This document shows, one piece after another, positions 15,511-54,942 of a DNA stretch of 64,000 bases; the first letter of the stretch is position 1; every line of letters starts with the position of its first letter. Both the position numbers and the translations under genes were made by a program. The stretch covers positions 23,354,717-23,418,716 of the forward strand of contig CM077828.1 of the NCBI GenBank assembly GCA_039720395.1, read 5' to 3'. The notes below the pieces were generated by a model. It was not told where the DNA came from and did no database searches. It saw nothing but the letters and a program-made list of their open reading frames with translations. The DNA comes from Liquidambar formosana (Eukaryota; Streptophyta; Magnoliopsida; Saxifragales; Altingiaceae).

Positions 15511-18237
15511 TGTCACACCCCATTTTTGCACCACTTTACTAGGCCTCATCATTTCATGCATGTTTTTATTTTCTTTTTTAGTTTAGTCACTTACATTAGT
15601 TTTCTAGAGTCACAAGGACAATGAGTATGAATTTTGGTTCAATTCGGAGTTGATCTTGAGGGATAATAAGAGCTTTTGTGACTTGAGGGGCATAATCTTC
15701 TTTTAAGTTCCAAACTTTTCATTTGACCTTGAAATGATCTCCAAATTGTCAATTAGAGTTCATATGGATGCATATGAGGTATTTCTAGGTTCAATTTGAT
15801 GAATCAATGGCTCGGGATTAAAATGGCTCGATGTAGTTCAAGTTGGTTAATTGACCCTTCTTTGGGTTAGCTTAAATTGACTCACAATTACCAACCAAAT
15901 CTTTTCAAATTGACTTTCATTAGTCATCGTTTTATCCCCAAAAGTGTTCTATAAAGTTTAATTTTGATATGGAAAACATTTGGTTTGATCCTATGTGCAT
16001 ACCTATACTTAGCAAAGGTAGAACATAGCGGTTAACCGCATTTGTCAAACCTAACCATGCCCCATGGTTAGTGGTTTTCACCCTAAAATGTTCAAAAATG
16101 TATTCCTCATCGAAACATGGTCATTTTGGTTTTTGTTTCATCAAAATCGGACTTAATTTGCCCCTTGAAACACTTCTAGAAGGAAAGGAGGCAAAATAGG
16201 CAAAAAATCCGAAGTGGGCTCAGGTGACCACCCAGCCCCGGGCGGCTAGCCGCCTGGGCCCAGGTGACTAGCCGCCCAGGCCCTGGTGGTCACCCAAGAG
16301 CACTTTCCTATTAGCTCTTTAACTCCTTGCTGAAGCGGACTCTTACCTATTTTGACGTATTTGGGCTCTTTTGGACGAGTTTCCTTCTAATTTTTGGCAA
16401 CTCATGAGTTACTTAAGCCCCAAGGGGATCTTTAATAGCCCTTGGATTAATTTTTAGATTTTTAATCTCAGCCATTGGTTTATCCTAATTGAAGTCTATA
16501 AATACTCCCTTATGCTTTAGCACAAGGGGAGGCAATTGGAGACAAAGGGGAGCCACTTTATGCATTAAAACCTGAGTGTCTGAGAGAGAATAAGAGAGAG
16601 AGACTTGAAAGAGAGCTAGAAGACCTGCTGTAGCCTTGAAGAGAGCTTGATTCAAGTCATCCACAAGTCAAGAGGAGAGTCTCTACAGCAGTAAGGAAGC
16701 ACTTCTCAATGTAATCTTCTGTTTTATTCAAGCTTAATTTAGGATTCTCTCTTAGGTTAGCTTTATTGCATGCAATGCTTATGATTTCTACCATGGATTG
16801 AGGTTTCTATTAGTTAATACATGTGATAATAATGACGTCCATGATGAGTTTTGCATGTTTTAGAGTCAGTTCATAGGTCTGATTCTAGTGCTTCTGTTGT
16901 CCTTGTTTTAGAATAGCGTCATTGCATGTTAAAATTAGGATTTTTTATCATGTTCTATTGCTTTAGTTAGTTAATATACATGATTTAAGTTCTGTTTAGT
17001 TTGATTTTTAGCATTTTTAGAGTTTGTTTTGTGTATTTTTAAGCATGTTTGTGAGTTTAGGGTTTTTAGTGTCCTTGTTTTAGGTTAGTTTCACACAGCA
17101 TGTTAGTTTAGGCTTTTTTTATTGATTTTTCTTCATAGTTGCTGTATATGTTTTACATATGGAATAACTATGATATTTTTGGATGCATGTTAGTTGATTT
17201 CTAGGGTTTTTATGCATGATATGGTATTAGGATTGTGTTAGAGCTTATATTTATTCGCTGTTTTTTGTTGTTAGCATGATTAGTGGATGATTTTAGGCCT
17301 TAATACTATTCTATCCAGATTTGCATATCATTGTGTTTGCATGATTTTGAGCACGTGTAAGGGCGCAAATAGGTGTGGTAATTGTCCTATGGCAAATAGG
17401 GCTGCCATTGCTTGAAATTGCTAATGTTTGGAGCTATTGCGCTCCGGTAAGTGGGTGTGAAAGTGTCCCAATTCACCTCTCTTCCTTAACTATTTCTCTT
17501 CTCCCTCCTAGGGTTAGTTTTTAATATGAGTTTATGGTCTTAATCAAAGGTTTCCTTAACCAATAAAATTCTGTTTTTTATCAAAGTTTCCATCTTGAGG
17601 AATTCTTTCTAAATTTAAACTTGGTTTATCTATTATATTCAATTCTCTTCCAAATAAGGAAGCCTAGGGTTTTTACCATAGGTTTATATTAGGATATAAC
17701 CCTATTCTATTCGAACTACGTAGACTTTGATCCATGTATTTCGTTGCATGGTACGTAGGCGTTCTTCGTGAGGCTCAAGTCCGTTCTAGGATCCAAGTAT
17801 CTTAGGTTTTTGTATTTTATTTTCTTTTTTATTTTCTGTTTTATCTTGCTTATTATGCATGGATGATTGGATAGAATATATGATATGCATGATGTCTTGT
17901 GATGGTATTTATTGATATTTGTATGGAAAAGATCTTAATTTAGGCCAAACAAACCGAGAGACCGAAAGGGTGACATGGGTGCCTGTAGGCTTTGCCTAAA
18001 ACCTTCCCATGTCATAACTTAGCCACCGAATCCCCGATTTCTTTGATTTCAAAAAAGACTGTTTTTGCCTTTCCTTTTTAAATATGGAGTCATTCAAATT
18101 GTTTTCTTAAAACAAAACTATTTTTAGGGTTTTCCTTGTTTCTTTTAAAAAAATAAGGTGGCGACTCCTTTTCTTTTCTTTTTAAACAAGTACTTTCTTC
18201 TTTTCAACCCTTGTGGGCCCAATTTTCGGGGTTCACA
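15511..18237 (+). mobile_element. Long LTR, probably a solo LTR of a Ty3-type element (LTR-A)
   Basis: It opens TGTCACACCCC and closes GGGGTTCACA, the usual TG...CA ends. Flanking pentamers are TCTGG (15506-15510) and CCTGG (18238-18242), so the target duplication has one mismatch or has decayed. A TATA box (tataaata, 16497-16504) sets the + orientation. Late in the LTR are 'gggtgcctgtaggctttgcc' and 'ggtggcgactcctttt', the same arrangement as in the solo LTR at 25958. Upstream of the TATA box lie palindromes at 16028-16039 (GCGGTTAACCGC) and a GC-rich cluster at 16222-16296. No gag-pol follows it. It ends the kinase pseudogene. Confidence 0.7.
16028..16296. repeat. Palindrome clusters in LTR-A
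   Basis: Cluster 1: GCGGTTAACCGC at 16028-16039, then the inverted pair CTAACCATG/CATGGTTAG around 16051-16071. Cluster 2 (16222-16296): GGTGACCACC, the perfect palindrome GGCGGCTAGCCGCC (16241-16254), GGTGACTAGCCGCC, and GGTGGTCACC. The first and last of these are reverse complements, so the cluster could fold as one large hairpin. The GC content is far above the surrounding LTR. Confidence 0.85.
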
Positions 18238-20744
18238 CCTGGCTTTGTGATTTGCGTGCTTGGATTTCTCTTCGCCTAGGGTTCTTGGCACTGTGTTTGG
18301 TCCGTGGTGGTTGAGGTGGTTTGCCGGTAACTATGACTTGGGTTTTGGCAATTGGGAGTCCTTTGCTTCTCGAAGGGTTCTCGTGTAACACTTTGGGGTT
18401 GCGTTGCCTTCTGCTGCGTCATCAGGTTGGGTTTCTGTGCTGATTTTTTTTCTTTTGTGGAGTTTATTGCGCGTGTAGCCTGTGCTGCGTAATTTCTAGC
18501 TTGTGTGGCTTGGCTGGGCTTGTGCTTTACCTGTCTGTGCTGTGGTTGTGACTTGGGCCTTGATTTGGTCTCGACAGTGGCTTGGCAAATTGATTCATTC
18601 TTTTGACCAAGTGTTGATTCTTTTGTCACTGTGTGGTTGTTGTGGTGCTTTGGATTTTGGTGTTCGTGGGGTTTGATTGTGGTTGCCTGTTGCTTTTGGT
18701 TTGCTGTTGTAGACTTGGGTTGCTTTTTCAGTTGGGCCTTCCCCTTTCTCTGTATGGTTTTGGCCCTTGCTTTTTGGTCTCGTGTACTAGGCTTGGCTAT
18801 TGTGTGCTCGTGGCTTGGCCGGGGTGTTTGATTGGCTTTCGCTTTTTGATTGGACTCTGTCATTGCCTGTGGAACTTGGTTTTTGCTTGTTGTTGGCCTT
18901 GTTTTACCGTCCACCATGTTAGTTGAGCTTGGACTTGTTCTTACTTGGGCTTTGATGGCTGGTGGAGTTGGCCGTATAGCCGTAAACAAGCCAAGAGGAT
19001 TGTCATTGATGATTCCGCTGGTTCTGGTCGTGGTCGTGGCCATGGCCCTGGACAGCCCCCTGCCTCCGACAAAGGCAAAGGAAAGGCCGTGGCTGCCAGG
19101 CCTAGGATGAGGAAACGCTCTACTCGCTCTCCCACTCCTTCTGAGTCATCTGCGAGCTCTAGTGCATATAGTGAGGAGGAGCTTGAGCCCTCATCTGTTG
19201 ATGTTGATGCCTTTATTGATGAGCTTGATTACGGGGCTCCACCCCCTGTAGGTCCAGGGACTGATGTTCTTGCTAACATGGTTATGGACACGTCAGTTGT
19301 TGAGTCCTGGTGGCGTTCTGCTTATCACAAGCAATCCTATCTCTCTCTATACTCCAAGCGACCGGTTTTGGGTGAACATGTTGTTAACCTTGATGGGATT
19401 GGAAATGGTTTTGTCAATATGATTTTTCAGCGGCGTCATTAGTGTCCTATCCTGAATTTGAGGGGCCGTGTTTATTTTCGTTTGGTTCAGCTATTTTATG
19501 CCAACATGTTTCACCAAAATACTAACACTTGGGTGCTTTACTCTCGTGTTTTGGGTGTTGATTTGATCTTTTCTGCTCAGTCTGTTGCCACTTTTCTAGG
19601 TTTACGCTGGGTTCCTGCTCTTAATATCCTGAATGATAAAGTTACTAAGACTTCGGCCATTTCTCTTGTCTATAATACCTTATGTGGTCAGGCTGTGGAG
19701 GTACACGATGCTCTGCGGGTTAGTTTGATGACTGAGAATTATCAAGTACTACACAAGGTTGTGTGCAATACTATCTTTCTGACCACTCATCAGTCCGATG
19801 TCACAATTGAGCGTGCTCACTTTTTTTATGCTCTGGGTACTGGTGGTACAGTGGACTTACCCTCTTTGATCGTTAAGCTTGTGTCCCAGGCTACGACTGT
19901 TATTAATGTGTCGATTGGATTACCGTTTGGGCTGTTGATCTCCAATTTTCTTCTTTCTAAGGGTGTACCTGTTGATATTCAGTCTCGCGTTCCACAGGGT
20001 GAGATTTCTGATATTACTTTGAAATAGAGCCAGGGGCAGCGTCAAGGTAAGCAAGCTCGGGTGACTTCTACCTCCGCTTCTACTATGCCTCCTGTTCCTG
20101 ATTAGTCTGCTCCAGTAAATCCTTCTCCACCGCTTCCTGATCAGTCGGCTCGCATGATAGACTTACTTACTGAGATCCTGGATCGGCTTAGTCGGATTGA
20201 GGATGTTTTGGTTGCCCGAGGTGGCCCGTTGCCTCCTTTGCCGCCTCGGGGTGGTGGTAGTTCTTAGGTTGTATTTTAAGTTCTCTTGCTAGTTTGGTGG
20301 TTTTTGGGTTGTGTTATGGTTGGTCCTTTAGTTGTGGCATTTTGTAGTGTTAGGATTTTCCTCAGGTGTTTTGTTTCCTTTATCCATTCCTGACAAAAAA
20401 GGGGAGATGCCTTGCTATGCTTGCTTATTCTGTTCTGCATGCTGTGATATGCCTATGCTTGCTTTTATGTTCAGCTATGCATGCTATGCTATGATTAGAT
20501 ATGCTTATTATGTATTGTTGTTCTATATGTGATATTATGCTGGGTAGTTGTTGGTATTGTGTGCAGATCACAGGTTAAGCTTTGAGCATTGCAGTTGAGT
20601 GTGATGGGTTGTTTATTTTATTTATTGAGTTGTAAATTTCATAATGAGTTTTAGGACCTATTTAGTTTTGTGGTTTGAGAATAGGTTTTATATCTCATGT
20701 TGAGATTAGGTTGGTTTTGTCACGGAATTGCCAAAGGGGGAGAT
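18238..20744 (+). mobile_element. Internal region of a truncated copia-like element (5' LTR missing)
   Basis: About 700 bp of G+T-rich, A-poor leader precede an ORF with a plant transposon-type domain. The region ends in a polypurine tract, ccaaagggggagat (20731-20744), directly before a 3' LTR that starts TGTAAAGTCC. No matching 5' LTR is present; LTR-A abuts the leader instead. No protease, integrase, reverse transcriptase or RNase H is visible, so the element was non-autonomous or internally deleted. Confidence 0.65.
18945..20267 (+). pseudogene. Transposon-associated ORF (putative plant transposon protein domain) with in-frame stops
   Basis: One reading frame from about 18945 to 20267 is interrupted only by three TAG codons (19440, 20025, 20103). 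The N-terminal part is basic and Ser/Pro-rich (RKRSTRSPTPSES), then acidic. The middle, from about 19458, contains RGRVYFRLVQLFYANM and VDLIFSAQSVATFLGL. These resemble the domain of unknown function called putative plant transposon protein in plant LTR elements. The C-terminus (MIDLLTEILDRLSRIEDVL) is a short amphipathic helix. At 20103 the stop lies in 'cctgattagtc', next to a sister segment 'cctgatcagtc', so that one looks like a C-to-T change of CAG. Domain assignment is from memory. Confidence 0.55.
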
Positions 20745-21831
20745 TGTAAAGTCCATATTCTTAGATTGGCATATTCCGTGGCAAAAGTGGTGTTTGTTAA
20801 GTGTTATTTGTTGATTCAAGATGTTTAAAGCTTCTAAGATTGACTCGAGTGCAGAATTCAAGGCAATGCGACTTACACTCATTGTTAGGTCAGGTAAGTG
20901 TCCATAAAAGCCCGTTTTTAATCGATTCTATTCATTTTAAATCTTGATATGTTCTTTGAATAAAGAGAAAATGTTTTTGAACATGATTTTGAAGCTTTTA
21001 AGCGAAATTCAGGTGCTAGGATCGATCGTGCGCTTTGGAGGATCGATCCTAGGGTGTTCTGGAAAAACAGTTTTGCTACTGTTTTGTAGGATCGATCCTA
21101 GGGTTCTCTGAAAAGATTTTTTGCTTCTGTTTTTTAGGATTGATCCTAGGGTCCTAGAGGATCGATCCTTGCTCGTAAAAATCAGTTTTTAAAATATGTA
21201 AAAATTACCTATTTGACCTTAATTCAAATCCCAGTCTCTTGGGGTGTCTTAGACTCTTTAAATAGGGTTTGTTTTGATACGGAGAGGCAAGCAAGCCTCT
21301 CCCTACTAGGTTTTACAAAGTTCATCTTCTCAAACCTCTCTAGAGCACTTTTACCTAGGTTTTCATACTTATGCTCTAGAGATCTTCAAACCACACCCTA
21401 TTTTCACATCCTTGAATGTTTGTGAGTCCGTTGCGACGGTGATCGAGCTTGCGAGTTCGTGGAAGAAGGAATTGCTATGAAGAAGTTGGTTGCGACCAAA
21501 CCCGTAAAGACGGAGATCGATCATGTGCGGTCATGGGAGTGAAGACTTTTGCTTAAGTCCTGTTGGTCTGTAAGTGTGTTTTGTACTCATTGAGTTCATA
21601 GTGGATTTGCTTCAATTGGACTAGGTCCCGTGGTTTTTCCTTTCTAGGGTTTTCCACGTGAAAATCTTTTGTGCACTCTCTTACATGCTTTTATACTTGC
21701 TATGCGATTGAATTGATTGTGTTAATTGAGATTTTGAGTGTTCATAATTAAAATTGGGTAAGGTTTATAGTAATACCTATTCAACCCCCCTTCTAGGTAT
21801 TGTAGGGTTAATATAACCGGAATTTCAAACA
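20745..21831 (+). mobile_element. 3' LTR of the truncated copia-like element (LTR-B)
   Basis: It is preceded by a polypurine tract, opens TGTAAAGTCC and closes AATTTCAAACA. Near the end is 'attcaacccccc', a string typical of Ty1/copia LTRs. A TATA-like box (tttaaatag, 21257-21265) marks the transcription start area. Five copies of an AGGATCGATCCT palindrome lie just upstream of it. The sequence after 21831 matches a host block at 33807, which confirms this boundary. Confidence 0.8.
21018..21169. repeat. Five AGGATCGATCCT palindromes in LTR-B
   Basis: Copies at about 21018 (right half changed), 21039-21050, 21088-21099, 21136-21147 (one C-to-T change) and 21158-21169. Copies 2-4 are spaced 49 and 48 bp apart, and the intervening DNA is itself a loose repeat (cagttttgctactgtttt). 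Confidence 0.9.
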
Positions 21832-22911
21832 GGTCACCTCTTCGATCTATATTTGATTCGGTTTGGCCCTATGTTTCTCACTTGTTAAGAGTATGAAAAG
21901 GGTGATGATTAGGAGTTCAAGACTGTTTGATTCCGACATTGAGTTAAGATTGCGAAGCCAAATTTTTTGAAGACTTAAAATCCGACAATGTAAACTTGAG
22001 TCCTACAAAAGTGTCTCAGTTCCCCTCCAGTCTTAACACCCTCCAGTTCTCTTCAGTGTGTGGTTCCAGAAGAGACACATTAGTTCAGGCTGATCTAATG
22101 GCTGCAATCGTGCCATGTTATCTAACTCAGTCCTATGCTGGAAAAAATCAAATATCCATGATTTTCAAGCTCATAACGTTTTTACAGAAAAAATTCCACA
22201 AAATACATATTATTGAAAAAAATAAAAATAAAAAAGGCAATGCCTTTAATAGAAAGAATCCTCGCCAATAGTTGTTGAACATCTGGAAAGGGGAGAAGCA
22301 AGCTGAAAACAGTATGGACGAAATAAATCAGAAATGTAAGACTTTATTATATTAATTTTCATTGAAGAGATAAATTTCAAAATGTTAGAATGAGAGCATA
22401 GGTCTTGCTGATCCCAACTTCCTGATAGAAGGAAAGCATATTGGATTTTTTGTTTTTTGTTTTTTTAAATGGTTTTTCGTGCTTTTACTTGGCTCCCCAA
22501 TGCCACATCTATATGGAAAAAGAATGATGATTAAGACTGAGTCTGGGTATGGCTTGGAAGCATGAGAAGTTTTCAACGCAACTTTTTGGATTCCTATAAA
22601 ACACATGTCTATTCATGGCTCCCACATAGTCCCCTGTTTCCCTGCTCCTACGTTAACTGGATTTGCAATATTGGTTGGTTATGAAATGCATGCTCCAATC
22701 TATTTGTGCTCTATTTGTACTACTATGTGGTGTTAATTTCTATTTTGACGCATCACCTTCGGACTAAAAGAAAAAAAGGTTATATAGAATGTACTCTTAT
22801 CAAAGATTCTTATTTTTAAAATTTTTTCATTCAAAACTATATAAAGGGTATTAGAATGTCCTTTGGAATTTGAATTAATCTGTCATATTGAGCATAGAAA
22901 TTAAACTTACA
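21832..22911. repeat. Duplicated non-coding block, copy 1 (partner at 33807-36465)
   Basis: From 'ggtcacctcttcgatctata' onward the sequence follows 33807 with small differences, continuing through 'ggattttttgttttttg' (22444) and 'aactggatttgcaatattgg' (22656). No gene is visible. This copy lacks the solo LTR present in the partner, so it preserves the empty insertion site near 22470. The block runs on into the LINE relic. Confidence 0.8.
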
Positions 22912-23800
22912 TTAACTGATAAAGCAGTGTTGACTAATCAAAAAAACTACTCGTACCAACTCACGTAGCAAATGAGATGGTATGCTGTCATTGCCTTTTG
23001 TACTTATACCCCAATTCATACAAAAATTCCTATGTTTGTCATTGTCACAACTCATAAATTCCTTTAAAGCTAGCTGCCCCAAATCTGACATCGTCAACAA
23101 TGCATTTGCAAACATAATCTTCACTCCTTTAGCAATTTTCCTGTATGCGAGCATTCCTTTCCCTCCGGACATTGTAAATTGTTGAGGTACAAGCAAGCTT
23201 TTTGATAACAGTACAAAATGATTTTCCTTTAAGAGACTGGCCCATAAAAATTCATTCTCCCAGGTGTGTTGGGTGTGATTGATACAGCACAAGGTAAGGA
23301 TTTTACCCCATACTTGGGAAGAGAATCTGCATGAGTAGAACAGGTGATTGCAGCTTTCATGGGGATGGCCACAGAGAACACAGGTGGTATTAGAAGTAAT
23401 ACCCCAGGCAAATAATTTATCCAGTGTTGAGATTCTGCCTTGAAGGTGAGCCATGCAGTGAAGCTATGTTTCTGGATAGCTTTAGGATACCAAATGATCT
23501 TATGCCAGTCAATGTCATGTGCTCTACTTCAAATTGCATTCCAGGTAAAGGAGACGGAGAAGAAACCAGTAGCCGATGGTGACCATAAGATAGAATCTGA
23601 TCTAGATGGGATAGGGGGAGAAATAGGAGCTGACTGGAGTACCAAAAGATCAATGGTGACAGAGAGAGGCCAACACCAGTGCGAGTTGGAAATGATGGTG
23701 CTCACCTTAAACCATAAGATCAATGGCTTTATTTTCTCCTCATATTCAAGTCTTAAACCATGTTTGGCCGCTATACTAAATCTTAAACGTGGTTTCACCT
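22912..23800 (-). pseudogene. LINE (non-LTR retrotransposon) ORF2 C-terminal relic
   Basis: Two frames on the minus strand (23798-23529, then 23454-22912) read as the end of a plant L1-type ORF2. The first includes DSILWSPSATGFFSV. The second starts MAHLQGRISTLDKLFAWGI and has the reverse-transcriptase zinc-binding cysteine pattern CVLCGHPHESCNHLFYSC. Endonuclease and reverse-transcriptase domains are absent and the frame shifts between the two parts, so it is a 5'-truncated fossil. Confidence 0.75.
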
Positions 23801-24119
23801 TCCATGGATGTTTCTCTCACATTTATTCTGCCCTACCTTTAGGTGGATCCATTATTATTCTTGTAATGTGGTGCTTCCTATTTGCAATACGACTAGACTT
23901 TCTTTATATTTTTGGTTTACTATATTTTTCCTCTGATCTTGCTTTCATTTTTTATCAGTTCCTTTGTGGGCACTGGGCAGTAAGGCAGTTTGTCCTTCCT
24001 CTGTTTATGTAAGCCCAATTTTATGCACATTGATGTCATGCATCTTGCTTAGGTCAGTCAGTTTAGAATCTTTGTGTTAATTGCTTATGTTTTTATTCCC
24101 TCAGGAAAAAGGAAAAAAA

Positions 24120-24330
24120 AATTATGGTAAGATCAAGAAATTTCTCTTTATTGGGTACAGTAATGAAACAAAGGGATTGTTATATAAAATCCTAAAAATG
24201 CATTCTCATGAATCATGATCAGTATAGATGTGAATTTCAATGAAAAAGATGCTTGGACTTGGACTGAAATTGATCGACAGGTTCCAATTCACATTGAGGA
24301 AGAAAAAATGGTGGAATTCAAAAATGAAAC
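24120..24330 (+). pseudogene. Copia polyprotein scrap
   Basis: A short stretch reads like the copia segment between integrase and reverse transcriptase, with frame breaks: 'GNETKG'-like and then VNFNEKDAWTWTEI, where copia elements have a 'V.FNE...W.W' motif. Only about 200 bp remain. Confidence 0.5.
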
Positions 24331-24504
24331 CTGCCTTGTGTATATGGTGATTAGGAGATCAAAATTTCTTTATATGTTGTCGGGTTCAACATACATTTGA
24401 TCTACCATTTCTATCCATCCAACTCACGACAACCTTGGAGATGTATCATAGTTTTTAGTTCATTTATGACCATAACTCTGACAATTTTTCTTTTGCAATT
24501 TTAG

Positions 24505-25957
<1,453 letters not shown>

Positions 25958-27255
25958 TGTAGACATCCCATTTTGCACCCGCTGATTGGGATTGGGGACA
26001 CCCTATGATGAGGTTAGTTTATACACTATAACTGGCTTTGGAATACGTCCAAATGAGCCAAAGGAATTGCAACTGACATTTTGGAATAGTGATGCGTACG
26101 CAGGGGCTAATGTGCGTATGCATTTGATTAAGGTGCGTACACACCTTATGTTTCTAGAACCCTTCTTTTCGGGCCTCTTGCCCTCCAGATCAGAACTCTT
26201 TTTAAACAACGTGTTACATCATGCTTAGGACACCTGGATTTCGGGGAAAAGAGGCAGAAACCCTAATCCTACTTCCCATGCCTATATATAACCCACTATG
26301 CACCTAAGAGAGGGGACTTTTGGACTGGAATTAGAGAGAGAGCCATAGAGAGGAGAGAGGAAGCATTAAAGGCTGCAATTCTGGAGGTTCAGAAGGAGAA
26401 ATTCTAAAGCAAGTGAAGTGCATAACCCTGAGGGTATCATCAATATCCTAGCTGTATCATTTATTTACTGAGCATGATGATTCATATTCGATAGAGTGAT
26501 GTTTTTTTATCATGAATGCCATGTTATTTGTATGATAATGATAGCATATCATCACGTAGTGGACTCTCTTCATAAGAGAACCTAGGGTTTCATGCGTATT
26601 TCTGCATAAGCATCATGTAGTGATCGAATTAGGGTTTCATTATGTGGTAATTTACTAGAATATAGGTTTCCTGTGTTAGCATAAAAATGATTTTAGGCAT
26701 TAATCTGTGGAAAATCACATGTATAACTTCTCGTGGTATATGTGTGAGATTCAGAATCTGATATAAATCACCAACTGGTGCGCACGCAATTGTTATATTG
26801 CGTATGCATTATATTATATGCGTACGCAGTAATGTGGTTGCGTACGCACCTAAATTGCTGGCAGACAGTTTCCTTTTCTTTATCGTATTTATTCTGAAAG
26901 TAGGTTAATCTGTATTTTCCTTTTTTTTTATGTTTATCCTGCGTTTCTTACTTCTGTCATGACATCATGGTTTGTGTGCTGCCATTGTTGAATGAGTAGG
27001 GTCAATTTTGATTAGACATTAAAATAATTAAAGCCATTAATCATGTGTGGGGGCCGGTTTCGACCGGGCGTGGCTGGGTGCCTAACACCTTCCCAGCTGC
27101 GTACCCTAGCTCCGAACCTGAATCTCTGGTTATGACGAGTTAGACCCTGCTAGGGTTCACTCGTTCCCATTATTGGGTGGCGACTCCTCTCCGTGTTAGT
27201 CTTTTGAGGCTAATACATATTCTCGAGCTATGTGGTTTAGGACGTGGCGCTCACA
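25958..27255 (+). mobile_element. Solo LTR, probably Ty3-type (LTR-D), with perfect 5-bp target duplication
   Basis: It opens TGTAGACATCCC and closes GGCGCTCACA. The flanks are ATATG (25953-25957) and ATATG (27256-27260), a perfect target duplication. It carries a TATA box at 26283-26291. Near the end are 'gggtgcctaacaccttccca' and 'gggtggcgactcct', the same order of landmarks as in LTR-A, so the two are related families. No internal region is present, so this is a solo LTR left by recombination between two LTRs. Palindromes based on TGCGTACGCA occur in two clusters. Confidence 0.9.
26093..26848. repeat. Seven TGCGTACGCA-type palindromes in LTR-D, two clusters
   Basis: Cluster 1 is upstream of the TATA box: 26093-26102, 26113-26122 (TGCGTATGCA) and 26134-26143 (TGCGTACACA). 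Cluster 2 is downstream and so probably transcribed: 26779-26788 (TGCGCACGCA), 26799-26808 (TGCGTATGCA), 26819-26828 and 26839-26848, the last two perfect. Cluster 2 units are spaced exactly 20 bp apart. Confidence 0.9.
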
Positions 27256-27758
27256 ATATGTTTTTCAAATCAGCCCAATCTCAGAATCCATTGGGTAAAA
27301 TGCCACTGGATTCAACTTAGCCTTTTCTGTATATGTTATGTGGAGAAAGTGAAGCGTAATTAGTATTAACTAAACAGTTTATATTTTCTTAGTAACAATT
27401 CTAGCACATGTTGATGAGACAAGCGATTCTTGGATATAATCTTGAATTTAATAGTCTAAACCAAGTGCAATGCTAGAGTTCTGTTTTTCTCATGCAAGTT
27501 CTTTTCTGCTCTGTTCTATAAGTTGAGTCCCTAATCCTAAAATATTGGGGAAATACTGGTCAGCACCCGCAGGTTTGTAAATTGTAACATGGGTTTCTCA
27601 TGTCACACATTGATGCAGTCAGTTTTTCCTGTGTTTAGTGTCTGTTATTGTTTGCTATGTGTTAGTAGTTGTTTAATTGAATTTGCTTGAACTGTATCTG
27701 TCGATGTGTTCAATCCAGTGTGTTATGTATGGATGGTTTGATAACTTTCTTGAATTAG
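27256..27758. other. BSK pseudogene intron, right part
   Basis: Non-coding sequence between the solo LTR and the second BSK exon fragment. Nothing else is recognisable. Confidence 0.45.
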
Positions 27759-28170
<412 letters not shown>

Positions 28171-28874
28171 TGTTTGCACCCTAAAAATATCAATTTTTAT
28201 TATTATTATTATGTGTTGAATTTTGCAGGACACTTGGCAATTATAAAGAAAATGCAGCACATGTGGCATAAGTTCATCTTTGGAGGTTACAAGAAGACAT
28301 GTGGAGAAATTAGAATGAAGGAGTTAGTACCTGCAAGTTAGTGGGAGTTATTAGTGGTTTTAGGAAGTTATGAGTAGTTTTCTTGTAATTCTATAAATAG
28401 GCTTTGAAGCCTTCATTGTAAATCCCTCTCAATCAATCAAATTATCAATTTTAGACTCCGGTCTCAAGACTCCGGTCTTTATCTTAGGAGTAGTTGGCCC
28501 TTAAGGCATCATAGATGGCCCTTAAGGCAATCTAATTCAAAAATCCAGGAACGTGTGCTCCTTCCTGGTCAAAGGCGTGTGCACCCCTTTGCCATATCAA
28601 TGATATACTTTCAAATGCATGTGGATCGCATATTCAAATCATGGTAATCGGACTTGATCCCATTCAATTTTACCATCCGTGGTGAATAGTGGAATCAACC
28701 CACATTACTCGTTTGAATGATCAAAGGTGGAAATTCTCAGATCACACGGCGAATATGAAGTCCTCTTCGATGAGGCATTCGAACCATTCGCACAAATTGC
28801 CTGAATAAGGCTGGCACGCCCCGCACTCCATTTCGACCTCAAAGTGCCGGTGGGAAATGTTTTTTAGGGAAACA
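28171..28874 (+). repeat. 5' LTR (704 bp)
   Basis: It contains a TATA box (ctataaatag, 28391-28400). It is longer than the 3' LTR by 35 bp because two short segments are present twice (agactccggtct and ggcccttaaggc, around 28455-28530). It has no palindrome array of the kind found in the four other LTRs. Confidence 0.9.
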
Positions 28875-29087
28875 TTTTTGGCACGCCCGGTGGGACGCCG
28901 TGTGATTTATTGTGTTGAAGAAAAAAAAAATTGAAAATGAAAACCATCACAGTTAAATCAAAATTTTGTTGATAGAAAAGCAATCGGTCATTGTGGTTTT
29001 GACTGAATAAACATAGTGGTTTTGTTCTTGCCTGTTGGAATGAAGATAAATGGCCAATGCCCATGCATGACCCACTGTAGAAGAAGC

Positions 29088-29405
29088 CAATATCACTTAT
29101 GCGGAGAGGAGCCAACATCATTCTTTGCATGTTGTGATTTCCATGATTTTATGTGGAGAGAAGCCAACATCAATCTCTACATGACTCTCATGTAGGTTCT
29201 TTTTGTGTGGATTGTGCCAACATCACTTATGCGGAGAGCAGCTAACACCATTCTCTGCATGTTGTGATTTCCATGATTTCATGTGGAGAGAAGCCAACAT
29301 CAATCCCTACATGACTCTCATGTGGACTCTTTTTGTGTGGATTGTGCCAATATCACTTATGCGAAGAGCAGCTAACATCATTCTCTACATATTGTGATTT
29401 CCATT
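29088..29405. repeat. 130-bp tandem repeat, about 2.4 copies, inside the element
   Basis: 'cacttatgcg' recurs at 29094, 29224 and 29354, an exact 130-bp period. Each copy continues with 'agagagcagctaac'-like and 'catgttgtgatttccatg' text. It lies near the start of the internal region, where autonomous elements carry their leader and gag. Confidence 0.85.
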
Positions 29406-30322
29406 GTCTATCAGGTAAGCCAACTATGGTTAAAAGAGTAATATAAAAACCGTGAATGGTTGAATCAAAATAATTCCCACCATGAAATATATTCATGGCA
29501 GGAAGAACAATGGTAAAATTGACCGTGGTTGAACGGTTACATTGATCTGCTAAATCGGCCATGACAAAATGGTTTCATGTTATTTTGTTTGCTAGGGAGT
29601 GTATAGGCCGTATAGGTCACATGCCATAACTGTTATGTTATATTGTGGCAAGATTGACCATGTAAGTGATCAACCATTATTATATAAATATTCAACAATA
29701 GCCAACGGCTTGTGTTGTGATGATCTGTCATGGTTATGTTGATTTTGATAATAAAAAATAAAAAATAAAAAAAGAAAAAAGAAAAGAAATCAACTGCCAA
29801 TGGTTGAATCAATATTACAACCACCATCTAATCCTGTGAGTATAAGTTGCCACAAAAAATCGGGGGGCTAGGCCAAAAGATGGCCAATTAGATGACAAGA
29901 TCAAAGGAAGTGGATAATAACTTCCTCATTTGAAAACGTTAGAAGTGGGAGCGGCTATTGGAACAACCGCCCATTTTTTTTCTCCTCCATGAAAATATAA
30001 ACCGCAGGCCATGGGGCTGAATAGTTTGTTAACTGGGACGGTTATCAAGGTGTCCACAAGATTGAGGCTGATTTAATGGAAACGGTTAAAAGACACAGAG
30101 AGTGGTCTTCTTGTGATAAAAGCAAGCAAATGGTCCAGTTGGCAACAGCTCCGTGGAGAAAGCAAAAGTGAAGGTCGAATCATGAAAAAACACTGCAAAT
30201 ACAAGTGCAAATGAAAATATAAGTCACTGTTCGAGCCTTGTGGCCTTTAATTTTTGTTTTATATAATTTGGCTTTATTGTGGTCCCATCGACCAAAGCCA
30301 ATACGTGGGTAAATTCATATTC

Positions 30323-30356
<34 letters not shown>

Positions 30357-31178
30357 GAGATGAGAGATGAGAACCAATGCATAAATTCTAAAGTTGGGTA
30401 CAAGTTTGACCGGCCAAGTCATTGATTCGGCCTTTACTTTTGTTGTTTTGGTTCTATATAGACACCACGTTTAAATTTATTTCGGCCTGATTAAAACTTT
30501 GTTGGCCGAAGTCATTGTTAGGCCAATCCCATTCTTTGGTTGAAGCTTGAATTTGAACTTCTATACTGGTTCAGGAATGATCAAAGATTGTAAAGTAGTG
30601 TATTACTTGGTGTAGTTTCTTGACGGGTTTCAAAATGTCATATATGCCCAACTATGCTTACACTAACCCAAAAATGGGCTTTAGATTTGTTGGTCATTTC
30701 TTGTTTGGCCGAATTCGTGTATTAGCCGAAGTCTCCTACGTGTAGGCATCCCTTTCACTTTGCTCTTTTTTGGTTGATTACATGTGGTAACATTATTTTA
30801 GTGAAATCGACCTAAAAAAAAAAAAAAAGATAAAAGATTCGGCCAATAGCTTTGTTTTGGCCTATGGTTTTTTCTTTAATACCACTCATGAGAGAGCACT
30901 AAAAAAGATCAATTGGAAGTGTTCTACATGTGATAATTCGGCCTCAATGTTAATAGTAAAATGAACCAAGATTGGCTACTTAGCCAAAAGAAAAACTCAA
31001 TTCGGCCTATAGCCTTGTTGGCCGTAATCATTACTTGCCCAAGTCGATCACTTTTGGCCTATAGTTTGTTGATGTTCGATCTATATGATGACCAAAAAAT
31101 TATAATAATAAAAATAAATTACGGCTCTTTAACAATTTCGGTCATCAATTCCTCATTTTCAAAGAGCCGGGGGGGCTA

Positions 31179-31847
31179 TGTTTGCACCCTAAAAATATTA
31201 ATTTTTATTATTATTATTATGTGTTGAATTTTGCAGGACACTTGGCAATTATAAAGAAAATGCAGCACATGTGGCATAAGTTCATCTTTGGAGGTTACAA
31301 GAAGACATGTGGAGAAATTAGAATGAAGGAGTTAGTACCTGCAAGTTAGTGGGAGTTATTAGTGGTTTTAGGAAGTTATGAGTAGTTTTCTTGTAATTCT
31401 ATAAATAGGCTTTGAAGCCTTCATTGTAAATCCCTCTCAATCAATCAAATTATCAATTTTAGACTCCGGTCTTTATCTTAGGAGTAGTTGGCCCTTAAGG
31501 CAATCTAATTCAAAAATCCAGGAACGTGTGCTCCTTCCTGGTCAAAGGCGTGTGCACCCCTTTGCCATATCAATGATATACTTTCAAATGCATGTGGATC
31601 GCATATTCAAATCGTGGTAATCGGACTTGATCCCATTCAATTTTACCATCCGTGGTGAATAGTGGAATCAACCCACATTACTCGTTTGAATGATCAAAGG
31701 TGGAAATTCTCAGATCACACGGCGAATATGAAGTCCTCTTCGATGAGGCATTCGAACCATTCGCACAAATTGCCTGAATAAGGCTGGCACGCCCCGCACT
31801 CCATTTCGACCTCAAAGTGCCGGTGGGAAATGTTTTTTAGGGAAACA
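31179..31847 (+). repeat. 3' LTR (669 bp)
   Basis: It is nearly identical to the 5' LTR, with one copy each of the two short segments that are doubled there. It is followed by CCTTC, the second target-site copy. Confidence 0.9.
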
Positions 31848-32900
31848 CCTTCATATCTCTGTTGTAATAATTTCAGGCCACATCTTAGATAAATTTTGAC
31901 ATTGAACCATCCCCAAGTTATTAAATTGTATCCCCAATAAATTACATTGCACCCCAAATTTGTTGGTTTCTCTTTTGCTCACAGCAACTTATTGGGTTCA
32001 TGGAAATGAAATCACTCCATTTCCTTCCGCACAGCATAACAAATGAATCCAATTTTTAATTTTTTATACCATTTGAATTAGATATTTTCATTGAACATAC
32101 CAATTTCTAGATAGCAGAAAATGCCTGCAAAGAAGAGAAATTAGAATGGATAGGGAAGCATCACCAATAAATTTTAAACCATCCTCAAATATTTTCTTCC
32201 ATGTTCATGAATTTTAAGTTGGATAGCTATTTCTGAAAGAACCTAAAACCTACACTTTACCCCAATCCTTGTACATTAAACACAAAACCCTAAATCCTAA
32301 ACCTTGAAACCTAAATCCAAGTCGAGGTGAAAGCAAATGCATTTTATTTGTTCAAGAGCTAGTGATACATATTTATACTATATTGACCTTTTGATATCGT
32401 TGTAACTTGGCCAACGAATTTAAGAGGAGGTGGATCTTTCTTTGTGAGAAAGGTTTTAAATGTTAGAGGATGATGATATGTATAACTTGTACGTATCAAC
32501 ATGCTAAGGGGCAATTTATGCTATAGCTGCAAATTGAGATACTGGCCACCCACAAGGTTTTGTCCAAATCTTATTAGGGTTTTGAAAATTTTGCCTGAGA
32601 TTTAATCACACTAGGGATTTGTTTCAGTATAATGGAGAAAAATATCAACACACTATCGTTACCTTTCATAGCTTAATTTAGTTATGTGGAAAAAAAATTT
32701 TGATTGATTAGGATGTGTTTATGATGTGAGTTGAAATAACCCCTTACATTAGTGTTATTTTGCGTGATGTTTATAAAAAATAGGTTTATACTCCCTCTGT
32801 GCCATAAAGATAGGCCAAGTTTGACAAAACCGAACACCCCTACTCAATCCTCTCCTTGAATCAGATTAGCTTGATAAACATCAACTTTTTTTTTTTTTGG
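31848..32900. other. Spacer
   Basis: Non-coding AT-rich sequence. A 'tactccctctgtgcc' string near 32791 resembles a Stowaway MITE end, but the opposite end was not found. From about 32900 the sequence joins the duplicated spacer family. Confidence 0.4.
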
Positions 32901-33806
32901 CTACATTGATAAACAGCTATTACTAAAAGCATGTTTTAGCCAATGTTTGGCTCTGGATGGATGAGTGTGGGCCTAACACGTGCAAGTTTTGCTTTCAAAA
33001 GTGAGATAGAAATTATGAAATCGCTAGCCAAACAATGGCATAAGTACAAAAGGCATAGACCCCTTAGGCCATATTTGTTTAATTGGAATGAAATGGATGA
33101 GAATTAAATTTGATTCCATAGTTAAAATAGTCTGGAATAGAAAGAAATTTAAAATGATTGTCTAAACTTGCTATTTGATTTCATTTCTATTTAAATTACC
33201 TCCTCCAAATACGCTGTTTACAATTAATTGAATGTGATTTCATTCCATCCATTTATTCCAGCTAAACAAACATAGCTTAAGAATAACTTAGTTTGTTTTA
33301 GTCCCTCTAACTCTGGAAGTAAAAATGGAAGTGGAAAGTTTTCACTTCAACTCCTTCTACATGCAAGAGACCAATCACCAACTCAAATTTTCCCTACAGA
33401 TTATGTAATCAAGTGGACGATAGCCTTATTTAAGATTTTGAAGCCAAGAAATAGTTGGACCAAATTTTGTTGATTCTTCAAGCCTAAAACGGACCAAATT
33501 TCGTTTTTTTTTTTTTTTTCTTTTTATTTGTTAGTTTAGTGCTGTAAACTTGTTTACTAAATGAAGTTCTGTCTTAACCCCAAAAAAAACGAAGAAGATG
33601 CATTTTTTTTTTTTTATTCTTATGATTACATTTAATTATATATATTGTACCATCTTTTAATTAGCTGTCTTTTTAGCACTTTACAAGTCCTCAATAATTT
33701 TTGGAAGCTAGAGATGATGGATGTCTATTATGGGACCTCTTAGATCAAAAATTTTGTAAAGAGCAAAGACTTCAAAGAAAAAGCTAACATGGACAGATCC
33801 TCTTGG
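32901..33806. repeat. Duplicated spacer module (copies near 12835, 41840 and 44700)
   Basis: 'ctacattgataaacagctat' and 'cctaacacgtgcaagttttg' with the following 500-600 bp are shared with 41841-42215. The second half is also shared with 12870-13480 and 44725-45240. It has T and A runs and no ORF. Confidence 0.75.
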
Positions 33807-34320
33807 TCACCTCTTCGATTTATATTCGATCCGGTTTCACCCTATGTTTCTCACTTGTTAGTTCTGGCGCAGTGATCTAATGGCTGAAATCGTGCCACGT
33901 TGTCTAACTCAGACCTTTGCTGAAAAAGCTCAACATATGTTTGAATGTCGTGAACAATAAATCAGATATCCATGATTTTCAAGCTCATAACGTTTTTACG
34001 GAAAAAATTCCACAAAATACAGGGCTACATATTATTGAAAAAATAAAAATATAAATATAAATAAAAAAGGTAATGCCCTTAATTAGAAGAATCCTCGCCC
34101 ATAGTTGTTGAAGGTCTGGAATTAAAGGGGAGAAGAAAGCTGAAAACAGTATATATGGACGGTATAAATCAGAAATGTAAGACTTCACTAAATTAATTTT
34201 CATTGAAGATCGAGATAAATTTCAAAATGTTAGAATGAGAGCATAGGTATAACAGTGCGTCTTGTTGATCCCAACTACCTGATAGAAGGAAAGCAGATTG
34301 GATTTTTTTTTTCTTTAAAC

Positions 34321-35603
34321 TGTTGTCCCAAGTAAACAACCCTAGAGGGGGGGTGAATAGGGTTATTTGCCAATTAAAAAAAATATGATAGCAAACTAAA
34401 ATCAGGTTATAGCAAATAGAGGTATCTCAATAATAAACAGTAACGAGAATAAGAGAGAGAGAATGCAAACACAAGATTTAACGAGGTTCAGCCTTCCCGC
34501 CTACGTCCTCGCCTCAAGAGCTCGCTTGAGGATTCACCAATCCACTATCACTCTCCTTCAAGGTGGAGCAGCAAACCTTTACAAATCAAGTGCTTTCAAT
34601 CCAACACTTGTTCAGCCACACTTCTTCAAGTGCAAAGAATGGGGTTATCACCAACCCTTGATTACAAGTTTGTAGAGATAAGATGTGTCTACAAAGAAAC
34701 TCTCTTTAAGAGTGAATAACACAGAAATTAAAGCTCAGCTCTCTTCTAATTGATTGCTCAATGAATGCTCTTAATGAATTTAGGGCTAGAAGAATGAAAA
34801 CAATGAATTCTCTTGTATTGATCCTCATAAATGCATTTGAATCATTGTTTATATAGGCATTAGGCATAATATGACCGTTTGGTGCAATAAATGCCGGGAA
34901 AGAGCCGTTTGGTGGCATTTAATGCCTCAACAACCTTTCAAAAACTAGCCGTTGGAGTTCTGAGATCGCACAATCAGTCGACTGAATACTCAATTCAGTC
35001 CACTGATTTGCTAAATCAGTCGACTGAATTGGGAATTCAGTGGACTGATTTGAGCAGAATCAAAAGACAGGAGCAGGTGACCTCTTCTGCTTAAATGAGT
35101 CGACTGATTTGGGAAATGAGTCGACTGAAATGGGCAGAAATGAATTATAATGGATATTTTACAAATTTAAATCGATCGAGTTCATTTGTATCAACTTATG
35201 CCTTGTTCAAGTGATGAATTAAGTTTACCCAAGGATCCTAAGGTCCATCTAGGTCAAGGGAGTGATCATTTTGAGCAATCAAGTACATCAAAAACCTAAT
35301 AACCTCACTCATAACTATTTAAGTATCTTCATTGACGATGCTAGCTTGGTCTTGAGTGATCGTAGGTCTTTTGCATGCTTTCTATGCTCGTATGCTTTTG
35401 TGCTTGATTATCCTTGATATCATAAGCATGTGTGCTTTGAGTTCCATGATATGCATATATCTTTATGCTTCTTTTGGATCCATATGCTCGAGTACCTAGC
35501 TTTGATTATAATCTTGACAAATAAACCATTAGTACTTACATCGATCCTTTGTTATCATCAAAATCTCGGATATGCCCTTGGTTATATAACCTTGGGGCCA
35601 ACA
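34321..35603 (-). mobile_element. Solo LTR, copia-like (LTR-C), with perfect 5-bp target duplication
   Basis: On the minus strand it opens TGTTGGCCCCAAGG and closes TTGGGACAACA. The flanks are TAAAC at 34316-34320 and TAAAC at 35604-35608. Near the end it has a 'cacccccc' string like LTR-B. A TATA box lies on the minus strand at about 34848-34856. Six TCAGTCGACTGA-type palindromes lie upstream of it in the minus orientation. The paralogous block near 22470 lacks it, so it inserted after the duplication. Confidence 0.93.
34974..35128. repeat. Six TCAGTCGACTGA-type palindromes in LTR-C
   Basis: Copies at 34974-34985, 34995-35006 (TCAGTCCACTGA), 35016-35027, 35037-35048 (TCAGTGGACTGA), 35096-35107 (TGAGTCGACTGA) and 35117-35128 (TGAGTCGACTGA). 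The first four are exactly 21 bp apart, and the last two are also 21 bp apart. Confidence 0.9.
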
Positions 35604-36584
35604 TAAACGGTAAAAGAAGTTTTAATGATTAATTGATAGAGAAAATTCAGTCTTGATATGGCATGGAAGCATGAGAAGTCCACAATGCAACTCCTTGGAT
35701 TCTTAACATGTCCCAAAGAAGTGAGAAATAGTACATAAAATTGCTAAGCACACCACACATACTCCAAAAAAAAAGGTCTAAGCCCTAATTTTATTTTTAT
35801 GGTCTATTCACATTATATGGTGTCAATTTTGGTTTAAGAAGCCTATCACATACTCTTGAAAAAAATTGTACAATAGCTATATATTTATAAGGAATTTGAA
35901 TGTCCAAACTATGTAGTTTTGAGCTTTTTATTATTATTTTTCCTAAATTAAAAACAAAAAAAATAAAAATGATGAAAGACCATTAGTAGTCCTTGAGTAA
36001 TGGTAGATATGTGATAAGACTCTTACATCAAACGTTTTGATTCATCCTAATTTGGACTAGTCGGTAGTGGAATCCAAAAGAATCCATCTTTTTAGATTGT
36101 CAGGGCATAAAAGATCTTTAATTGCTCCCTTGTTAACCGGATTTGCAATATTGGTTGGTTAATTATGAAATGCATGCTCTATTTGTACTATACTACTATA
36201 TGGTGTTAATTTCTATTCTGACGCGTCATGTTCAGACTAAAAAAAGGAAAGGTTATAAAGAATGTACTCTTATCAAAGATTCTTATTTTTAAAATTTTTT
36301 CATTCAAAACTATATAAAGGGTATTAGAATGTCCATTGGAACTTGAATTAATCTGCCATATTGAGCATAAAAACTTACGTTAACTGATAAAACGGTATTG
36401 ACTAATCAAAAAACACTACTCGTACCAACTCACATAGCAAATGAGATGTTACAATGTCATTTAATTTGTTTATTTTTTGATTAGTCAATACCACATTATC
36501 AATTAATGTAAGTTGGTGCACAAGGGTAGAGCTAGTGCAAAGTTTAAAGGAAAATGAGGTTTGGATTTGAGATTTTCATAGGGG

Positions 36585-45389: not shown

Positions 45390-45780
45390 ATTCTTATGAT
45401 TAAATTTTATTATATTGTACCTTGCTTGTTTAATCCATTTTAGGAGGAGGGTATACCACGGATGGCTTGGTCGTAGGAGTCGTAGCCGTCTTTTTTTTAT
45501 AAAAGGAGTCGTAGCCGTCTTGCCCGACAAAATTAACTCTTCAACGTGGCTGCTCAAGGCCATAACGTCCTATGACCATTAAATTCCCGCCTTGACAAGG
45601 TACTATGACCCACCACCTTGGACTTACCCAATCATCCAATCCTTCAATTTAATTAATTGGTGGAGAAAAATTTCTGTGAGATCACCTTTATCCCATCTTC
45701 TATCAACTCCTTCTAGTGTACTGTTAGCCTTTGAAGTTTGAACAAAGGAAATCATATATTTTCAGCTCTTCCAAATCTCA
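44451..45780. repeat. Duplicate of the SCAPER 3' flank plus kinase upstream region
   Basis: 44453-44740 copies 12643-12870 from just after the SCAPER gene. 44725-45240 copies 12870-13480. An (AT)n run follows at about 45343-45381. 45580-45780 is the immediate upstream region of the kinase and matches 14640-14689 ('gaaatcatatattttcagctc' style text). Confidence 0.8.
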
Positions 45781-48700
45781 ATGTTCAGGTGTAAAATGGA
45801 GATTCCTACAGGTATGGATTTACGCATAATATCTTTACTTCTCATGCATATTTTACTACTACTCGCTCAAGGTTTCTCAATGTATGGAGGAAATGAGACA
45901 GACAGACAATCTTTGCTTGCTTTCAAGGCTAAGCTAACTGAGGACCCCCTTGGTATCCTCAGCTCATGGAACGAATCTACCCACTTCTGCCGTTGGCCAG
46001 GCGTCACATGTGGCCGCCGGCACCAGAGGGTGACCATGCTGGACCTACAGTCACAAAAATTGGTAGGTACCTTATCACCCCACATTGGAAACCTCAGTTT
46101 TCTTAGGATTTTAAACCTCCAGAACAATGGATTCAACCATGACATCCCTCAAGAATTGGGTCGCCTTTTCAGGCTACAAAAATTAATCCTTGAAAACAAC
46201 TCATTTGGTGGTGAAATCCCCACCAACATTTCCCGTTGCACTAACCTTGTATTCCTCAGTTTAACTGGAAACAATCTGACTGGGAAACTTCCTACTGAGC
46301 TTGGTACATTATCGATACTCCAAGTGCTTAGCTTATACAAAAATAATCTCATAGGAGAGATCCCACCATCTTTTGGAAATCTTTCTTTGCTTCATAAAAT
46401 CGAAATGACTCGGAACAATTTGCAGGGAAGCATTCCGAGTACCTTTGGCCGATTGAAGAAGTTAGAAATTCTTCAACTTGGAGTAAACAAACTATCTGGT
46501 ACAATCCCTCCCTCAATATTCAATCTCTCTTCTATTAATCATTTTTCGACGCCAGAAAACCAACTTCATGGGAGTCTTCCTCCTGACTTAGGCCTCACTC
46601 TCCCCAAACTCATTAAGCTCAATCTATTTGACAACCAATTCACTGGACTCATTCCAAATACCATCTCCAATGCCTCTGGTCTAATGTTTATTGGCATGGG
46701 TAAAAACAACTTTACCGGGAAGGTGCCTACTTTGGCAAGCCCACATCATCTTTGGTGGCTAGAAATTGATGGGAATAATCTTGGAAATGCTGAAGATGAT
46801 GATTTGAATTTTCTCTCTTCTCTTCGTAACTGCACCGATTTAAAAATGTTGGCTCTAGCTGACAACAATTTAGGTGGGGTGCTGCCCGAATTTATAAGCA
46901 ACTTCTCGACAAAGATCTGGTTTATGGCACTTGGAGGAAATCAAATACGAGGAAGCATTCCTAGTGGGATTGGAAACATCATCAGCCTAGGGACACTAGG
47001 CATGGAATTAAACCAATTGACTGGTACGATACCAAGCTCAGTTGGTAAACTACAAAAACTAAAGCTTCTTTATGTCGGTGGAAACAAACTCTCGGGGAGT
47101 ATCCCGTCTTCTCTGGGAAATCTAACTTCATTAGTCGAAATCGATTTGGGATCGAACAATTTACAGGGAAGGATACCATCAAGTCTGGGAGATTGTCGAA
47201 ATTTGCTATTGATGATTCTCACTCGAAACAACCTTAGTGGTACCATACCCAAAGAAGTACTTAGTGTCTCTTCCTTGTCTATAATTCTCGGCTTATCTGA
47301 AAACCATTTGACAGGCTCAATTCCTTGGGAAGTTGGAAAATTGGGAAATCTTGGCATCCTGGATGTTTCGAAAAACAAATTATCTGGTGAAATTCCAAGT
47401 AGTTTTGGTAGTTGCAGAGTCTTGGAGAGTTTATATTTGGAGGGTAACTTTTTTCAAGGGACAATTCCTCCATCTTTCAGCTCTTTGAGAGGTCTTCAAA
47501 ATTTAGATCTTTCTCGCAACAATTTATCTGGCCAAATTCCAAAATATTTGGAAGGCTTTGCCTTGAAGAATTTGAATTTGTCCTTCAATGATTTCGAGGG
47601 TGATGTGCCTATACAAGGAGTCTTCAAGAATGCAAGTGCAATTTCAATAACTGGAAATAGGAAGCTTTGTGGAGGTATACCTCAATTAAACTTGCCGACA
47701 TGCCCTTCCAATGAGCCTAAGAAGCAGAGATTGTCATTTAAGGTGAAATTACTTATCACATTAGTCGGGGGACTTCTTGGACTAACCTTGATGTTGTCCT
47801 TTTTTATTCTTTATCAATCAAGATTAAGAAAAACAAGAAAGGTGCCTCCTAGATCAAGTTCAAAAGAAATTAACTCCCTTCTAAGAGTGTCCTATGGAGA
47901 TCTCTTTAATGCAACTGATGGGTTCTCTTCGGCTAATTTGATTGGTGTTGGTAGTTTTGGATCGGTGTATAAAGGAATTCTTCCTCGGGAAGAAACAGTT
48001 GTTGCAATGAAAGTACTCAACCTTCAACGAAAGGGAGCTTACAAAAGTTTCATGGCCGAATGTGAAGCCTTGAGAAATATTAGGCATCGGAATCTTGTCA
48101 AGGTATTAACCGCATGTTCAAGTGTTGATTTCCAAGGTAATGATTTTAAGGCTCTAATTTATGAGTTCATGGTCAATGGGAGCCTAGAAGACTGGTTACA
48201 TCCAATACATAGAGAAGAAGAAGCACAAGAGCAAAGATACTTAAATCTTCTTCAGAGAATTAACATTGCCATAGATGTGGCTAGTGCATTGGATTATCTA
48301 CATCATCATTGTGAAGTGCCAATAGTTCATTGCGATTTGAAGCCAAGTAACATTCTTATGGACAATGACATGATTGCTCATGTAGCTGATTTTGGCTTAG
48401 CAAGATTCTATGTAGAAGCCAATCAAACTAGCTAGCTCTCTTGGAATTAAAGGCTCTATCGGCTATGCTGCTCCAGGTAACTCTCTTTTATATTTTCCCC
48501 TTAGTTTTAACTTTTTGGTTGACTTTTCAAGGATTAATTAAATTATACTTGCTAAATGAATGCCATGCTAAGTTTTTATTTTTTTTTATTTTTTTTATTT
48601 AAAGAAGAGGATTACAGAGATAAAACCTCCTATCATCCCAACCAGGTTGGCACGAAGCTTCCCAATCCTCTGCTATTAGTCCTGAGTATTATTAATAGGA

Positions 48701-54714: not shown

Positions 54715-54942
54715 GAAAATTTTGACGAGCCTAAAATCTATGATAGTATAATGCTAATGTTTAGAAGAGAAACACTTGCAGAAATATTACTAGAAGAAAG
54801 GCAATATGAAAACCTTGAAGGAGAAGAGTTCATCTGTAGACCATGAAAATGGAAAGCAGAAAATGAATTCATTTTTCAAGATGTAGAAAAAGATAGACAA
54901 CCATTATGTTTAAGAAGTAATAAGAATAAATGTCAATTTGAT

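Follow-up and report, generated by a model that had tools for sequence, protein, structure and literature searches.

The window analysed here, a 64,000-bp stretch of the Liquidambar formosana genome (contig CM077828.1, positions 23,354,717 to 23,418,716), contains long terminal repeats (LTRs) of four retrotransposon families, LTR-A to LTR-D, each with an array of short boxes of its own palindrome type upstream of a TATA-like sequence. These arrays are genuine and hold at the family level in all four families. Neighbouring boxes mostly recur at a step of about two helical turns, the boxes of A, B and D are kept better than the spacers between them, and in a sister group of LTR-B the arms of all boxes have changed in concert, with core and grid retained. 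An initial annotation of the window had pointed out the palindromes; it missed both the 20–22 bp spacing and a second array in LTR-D. We lean slightly towards the boxes being docking sites for dimeric DNA-binding proteins, which would bind in pairs and raise LTR transcription and would likely be host transcription factors.

LTR-A (15511–18237, plus strand) is a solo LTR flanked by TCTGG and CCTGG (4/5 matching). Its array (16223–16294, plus strand) comprises four boxes, GGTGACCACC, GGCGGCTAGCCGCC, GGTGACTAGCCGCC and GGTGGTCACC, with steps of 20, 22 and 20 bp between centres; one exact GGCGGCTAGCCGCC lies at 16241, the second copy at 16263 has two mismatches, and the outer boxes GGTGACCACC (16223) and GGTGGTCACC (16285), each non-palindromic, are reverse complements of one another. 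LTR-B (20745–21831, plus strand), the 3' LTR of a truncated element and immediately preceded by a polypurine tract, carries five AGGATCGATCCT-type boxes, three of them exact (21018–21169, plus strand; steps 21, 49, 48 and 22). In the solo LTR-D (25958–27255, plus strand; target duplication ATATG), three TGCGTACGCA-type boxes, one exact, form the upstream array (26093–26143, plus strand; steps 20 and 21), and a further four boxes, 3' of the TATA box, make up a second array (26779–26848, plus strand; steps of 20 throughout). LTR-C (34321–35603, minus strand), also solo (target duplication GTTTA), has six TCAGTCGACTGA-type boxes, two exact (34974–35128, minus strand; steps 21, 21, 21, 59 and 21). 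Apart from one 45-nt match between A and D (E 0.028), the four LTRs have no sequence in common.

TATA-like sequences were found where the initial annotation had placed TATA boxes, at 16497–16502 (A), 21257–21264 (B) and 26283–26288 (D) on the plus strand and at 34850–34855 on the minus strand (C), although that of LTR-B is TTTAAATA and not TATAAA. The annotation had located all four arrays in the same promoter-proximal position, 90–200 bp before the TATA box. The upstream placement is correct for all four; the range is too narrow, since box centres lie about 93–270 bp upstream, and the description is incomplete for LTR-D because of its downstream array.

Palindromes as such are not enriched in the window: 33 palindromes of at least 10 bp with at least 4 G/C were counted, against a mean of 29.45 and a maximum of 39 in 20 shuffles, and window-wide enrichment (33 versus 29.45) was rejected. 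The difference from shuffled controls lies in the local arrays. A detector requiring three or more near-palindromes similar to each other reported four arrays for the window, namely B, C, D and the second D array at 26779–26848, and none in any of the 40 shuffles (20 whole-window, 20 block). In a local test with an arm length of 5, the number of shuffles, out of 2000, that reached the observed palindrome number was 0 for B, 14 for C, 22 for A, 155 for D upstream and 57 for D downstream. The LTR-A test counts two palindromes, one of which, CCTGGGCCCAGG, is located between boxes, and the LTR-A copy in the window is too worn to stand by itself. Of the four arrays originally proposed, all with correct coordinates, B, C and D were thus recovered by the detector in the window, and A holds at the level of its family. 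A fifth element (28171–31847) has a pair of near-identical LTRs about 3.0 kb from each other and contains a 130-bp tandem duplication; the detector gave no palindrome array in its LTR at 28171, as the annotation had stated.

The families were followed through the genome (718 Mb, 370 contigs), this being a study of one genome with about 40 scored places per family and 50 sites shown per genome scan. Each exact motif was compared with the same motif read backwards, and the counts were 4279 versus 0 (A), 1396 versus 34 (B), 1454 versus 16 (C) and 16267 versus 109 (D). Family copies were then picked by the sequence neighbouring the array on its TATA side, so that selection was independent of the motif. 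This gave 30 copies of A from 40 scored places among 2892 candidates, 30 of B from 40 among 1037, 19 of C from 40 among 1867, and 19 of D from 41 matches (40 of 346 candidates scored). Boxes were present at the matching place in 28/30 copies of A, 30/30 of B, 19/19 of C and 20/20 of D (window included). Box-like words were concentrated in the array zone, with 102 inside it versus 51 in 89,470 other bases of the same loci for A, and 189 versus 63 in 89,155 for B. The downstream array of LTR-D, which in the window follows the TATA box by about 490 bp, had at least four boxes in 16/20 D sequences. Motif counts and motif-independent copies agree with the earlier proposal of one palindrome type per family. 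The number of boxes per LTR is 5–10 in B, 0–4 in A and 4 or 6 in C, and some B copies contain tandem repeats of a unit of about 70 bp. B copies are 88–92% alike (paired B LTRs occur, for example, at G000:C1:48212338-48223167); C LTRs are 99–100% identical genome-wide, with pairs about 8437 bp apart, which indicates that family C was amplified recently.

Neighbouring box centres are 19–22 bp apart in 70/74 intervals of A, 20–23 bp in 92/159 of B, 20–21 bp in 72/91 of C, 20–21 bp in 38/38 of the upstream D array and 19–21 bp in 51/59 of the downstream one. A further 64 B intervals, between pairs, measure 45–52 bp, the other 19 C intervals measure 59 bp, and in one of the 22 four-box copies of A (L025) the first box is displaced by 47 bp. 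Steps between exact sites, taken from the first 50 sites of each genome scan and hence not chosen by LTR, gave among the sites listed 7/7 at 22 bp for A, 17/34 at 21–22 for B, 10/27 at 20–21 for C and 25/33 at 19–21 for D. Two turns of B-DNA correspond to about 21 bp, so the boxes within a pair face the same way.

For boxes, spacers and outside sequence, in that order, the mean pairwise column identity was 0.892, 0.653 and 0.854 for D, 0.962, 0.817 and 0.889 for B, and 0.916, 0.841 and 0.874 for A. A and B were each scored on 27 copies, excluding L017, L020 and L025 (A) and L046, L049 and L056 (B), and the aligned piece of B covered just five boxes of the reference copy. Among 136 D boxes, 96 changes were found, of which 66 were C-to-T or G-to-A at CpG; the boxes were therefore kept despite fast-decaying CpGs, and these changes would be the mark expected of methylated DNA.

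The sister group of LTR-B consists of three of the 30 B copies (L046, L049 and L056), in which the six-box grid is retained. Compared with the majority of the other 27 copies, 23/28 cells of the arms (positions 2 and 11) had changed, as opposed to 3/120 in the 8-bp core, 97/270 in the spacers and 110/567 outside, in line with the suggestion that palindromes are replaced against a better-kept background. Two of the three, L049 and L056, lie 10.8 kb apart on one contig and are probably the two LTRs of one element, so that the group would represent two elements, not three. The sites listed when the genome was scanned for CGATCGATCG follow the same grid, with 16/20 close intervals at 21–23 or 48–49 bp.

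The symmetry of the boxes, the constraint on the boxes only, the two-turn step and the concerted arm change round a fixed core are the reasons for which we infer sites for dimeric proteins. The boxes would be cis-acting sites in the U3 region of the LTR promoters, each palindrome being bound by one symmetric protein dimer. Two boxes, or a short series of them, set about two helical turns apart would form the working unit; neighbouring dimers would then share one face of the DNA and assist each other's binding, and this cooperative binding would increase transcription from the downstream TATA box. Since half-sites differ between families, host factors would be the simpler source of these proteins, most likely a different kind of transcription factor for each family. 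The AGCCGCC of A resembles what we take to be the half-site of the ERF GCC-box, and the GTAC of D resembles what is presumably the SBP/SPL core. In sister LTR-B, the arms would have been re-tuned in all boxes with the core and grid unchanged. The varying box number of A and B copies resembles that of enhancer repeats. For binding of a host factor at an LTR, ONSEN may serve as a precedent, as the host factor HSFA2 binds a heat-response element in its LTR (PMC3907296). From what that source reports, ONSEN is similar in that its plant LTR promoter contains a symmetric site for a host factor, and differs in having a single short element and a trimeric factor, without an array of 10–14 bp palindromes.

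Several observations weigh against this proposal of dimeric docking sites. The LTR-A array of the window was missed by the detector, the C copies are too alike to reveal box conservation, and the sister-B evidence is limited to three LTRs. The CGATCGATCG motif was not clearly enriched in the genome (2586 versus 1797 for its reverse). In D an equally regular array follows the TATA box, a position that an upstream activator would not need to occupy, and symmetry is lacking in the outer boxes of A and in two inner boxes of C. The steps between pairs, 48–49 bp in B and 59 bp in C, are not whole helical turns; it is therefore the pair or short run, and not the whole array, that looks like the unit. 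Finally, the arrays fold as RNA with z-scores of -8.2 (A), -5.4 (B), -7.8 (C) and -4.1 and -5.7 (the two D arrays), calculated on one sequence each.

A self-recognition tag is an improbable alternative, in which an element-encoded protein, acting like VANC, would bind the boxes and lift the silencing of its own family, boxes and reader changing together. Hosaka et al. (2017; PMC5735166) describe the VANC target motifs of VANDAL transposons as tandem repeats that vary between related elements, their units changing together, as do the arms in sister B. As far as that account goes, the VANC targets are comparable to the present boxes as short, repeated, element-specific motifs in non-coding DNA that change together; VANDAL differs in being a DNA transposon with non-palindromic motifs such as YAGTATTAC, and its reader is known, an example of changing repeats read by a protein of the element itself. 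An extra open reading frame (ORF) is present upstream of LTR-B, with a PF20167 (Transposase_32) stretch at 19443–20024 on the plus strand (E 3.7e-18), but its structure model, built on a five-sequence alignment with a predicted local distance difference test score (pLDDT) of 32.9, is useless as evidence for a reader. The antisense TRP28 of Retand is thought capable of DNA binding, according to the part of PMC11963269 consulted; no extra domain was found in three other-strand pieces of the D element that were examined.

About equally improbable is a hairpin or small-RNA signal, by which the boxes would pair in RNA and form microRNA-like hairpins through which silencing is either fed or evaded. 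The genomic RNA includes U3 in its 3' part, all five arrays fold strongly compared with shuffles, and exact reverse complements occur, namely the outer boxes of A and two C boxes, TCAGTCCACTGA and TCAGTGGACTGA; in maize, Sirevirus palindromes are described as small-RNA hotspots (PMC5311732, PMC10760457, as far as these sources were available). However, such folding is expected from self-complementarity alone, and C boxes 1 and 2 have one orientation. Moreover, a hairpin does not require a fixed step, yet the steps are kept while the spacers vary fastest. Least likely, the boxes would be a by-product spread without use by slippage or recombination inside LTRs, as their variable number and the repeated B unit might suggest; duplication would have copied the spacers too, whereas boxes are kept and spacers are not, and in sister B the arms of all boxes changed with their cores retained.

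The superfamily of each LTR was assigned from domains found between paired LTRs and from the primer site. For B (L112) and C (L090), the integrase precedes RVT_2 between paired LTRs elsewhere in the genome, and both are therefore Ty1/copia. Between paired D LTRs the order is RVT_1, RT_RNaseH, RVT_3, then Integrase_H2C2 and rve; the order reverse transcriptase (RT), RNase H, second RNase H (aRH), integrase is given for Ogre/Retand in the text available of PMC6317226. Judged by its domains, LTR-D is certainly Ty3/gypsy, of the Ogre/Retand (Tat) type. LTR-A is probably Ty3/gypsy of the Ogre/Retand kind as well. TTTGGCGACTCC directly follows the LTR-A end at 1040 + 1115 = 2155 places (0 + 0 for the reversed control), and three A arrays lie 1959–1991 bp from such junctions; we take this primer site to be of the tRNA-Arg rather than the tRNA-Met type. 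No pol ORF was found in one 1.3-kb piece inside an A element, and a search with the LTR-D RT (101 of 9511 candidates scored) gave, by eye, no link to a gypsy pol inside an A element among the C1-C2 junctions listed. The presence of at least two superfamilies, as first proposed, is borne out by B and C on one side and D on the other. With two Ty1/copia families, one certain and one probable Ty3/gypsy family, the four LTRs may represent two lineages rather than four independent cases.

The initial annotation knew of no accepted explanation for such arrays. This does not stand, as Bousios et al. (2010; PMC2829016, cited here from the parts consulted) reported that 13 Sireviruses have element-specific, palindromic repeated motifs 5' of the TATA box, proposed a role in transcriptional control and termed the motifs Sirevirus-specific, apparently by comparison with a Ty1/copia set. 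In their Table 3, 12 of 13 motifs have a CGG-CCG core; there are at least eight copies per element, with more upstream of ENV, and the lineage has a C-rich signal located about 21 bp away from the 3' end of the LTR and the primer binding site TATCAGAGC. A 2016 follow-up ties the palindromes to small RNAs (PMC10760457, and for the maize hotspots PMC5311732, both seen in part). B and C are likewise Ty1/copia with palindromes clustered upstream of the TATA box, and a C-rich run was noted, by eye only, near their LTR ends; however, B (AGGATCGATCCT) and C (TCAGTCGACTGA) lack the CGG-CCG core, as does Tnd-1. Compared by eye with Table 3, the A core CGGCTAGCCG fits the Citrus motif CGGCTWRCCG, GTCGAC is common to C and the Vitis motif, and ATCGAT is common to B and Tnd-1. 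Since D has palindrome arrays and is Ty3/gypsy, restriction to Sireviruses fails. A search of the accessible text of PMC2829016 for helical, spacing, spaced and periodic turned up no box step; in the limited open-access literature, screened by title and abstract start, no report of Ty3/gypsy palindromes or of a box spacing was found, which leaves absence unproven. The basic layout was thus already known; what is new is the extension to Ty3/gypsy, the grid of two-turn steps and the concerted change of arms.

Other features of the window were also recorded. The PF20167 stretch has four relatives, one of them from Liquidambar formosana. The segments 22091–22909 and 33873–36382 are a duplicated stretch, in pieces 80–95% alike, and LTR-C sits, by eye, within just one copy. 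A long ORF at 45742–48435 resembles, by eye, a leucine-rich-repeat receptor kinase, and LTR-A was seemingly inserted near 15510 into a stretch related to it. The ORF at 54847–55911 has, by eye, a retroviral-type aspartic protease motif and zinc-finger-like cysteines.

In conclusion, Sireviruses are not alone in having palindrome arrays upstream of their LTR promoters, and the spacing rule added here suggests proteins bound next to each other along the helix. It is conceivable, though doubtful, that both plant LTR superfamilies reached the same promoter code, made of two-turn symmetric boxes and diversifying dimeric readers with a preferred half-site that shifts from family to family, possibly element-encoded anti-silencing proteins; the box would then be a family address open to re-tuning in every box with core and grid intact. 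The main and sister LTR-B groups provide a natural before-and-after pair for studying how a mobile element comes to be activated by a different factor, and what reads the boxes becomes directly testable.

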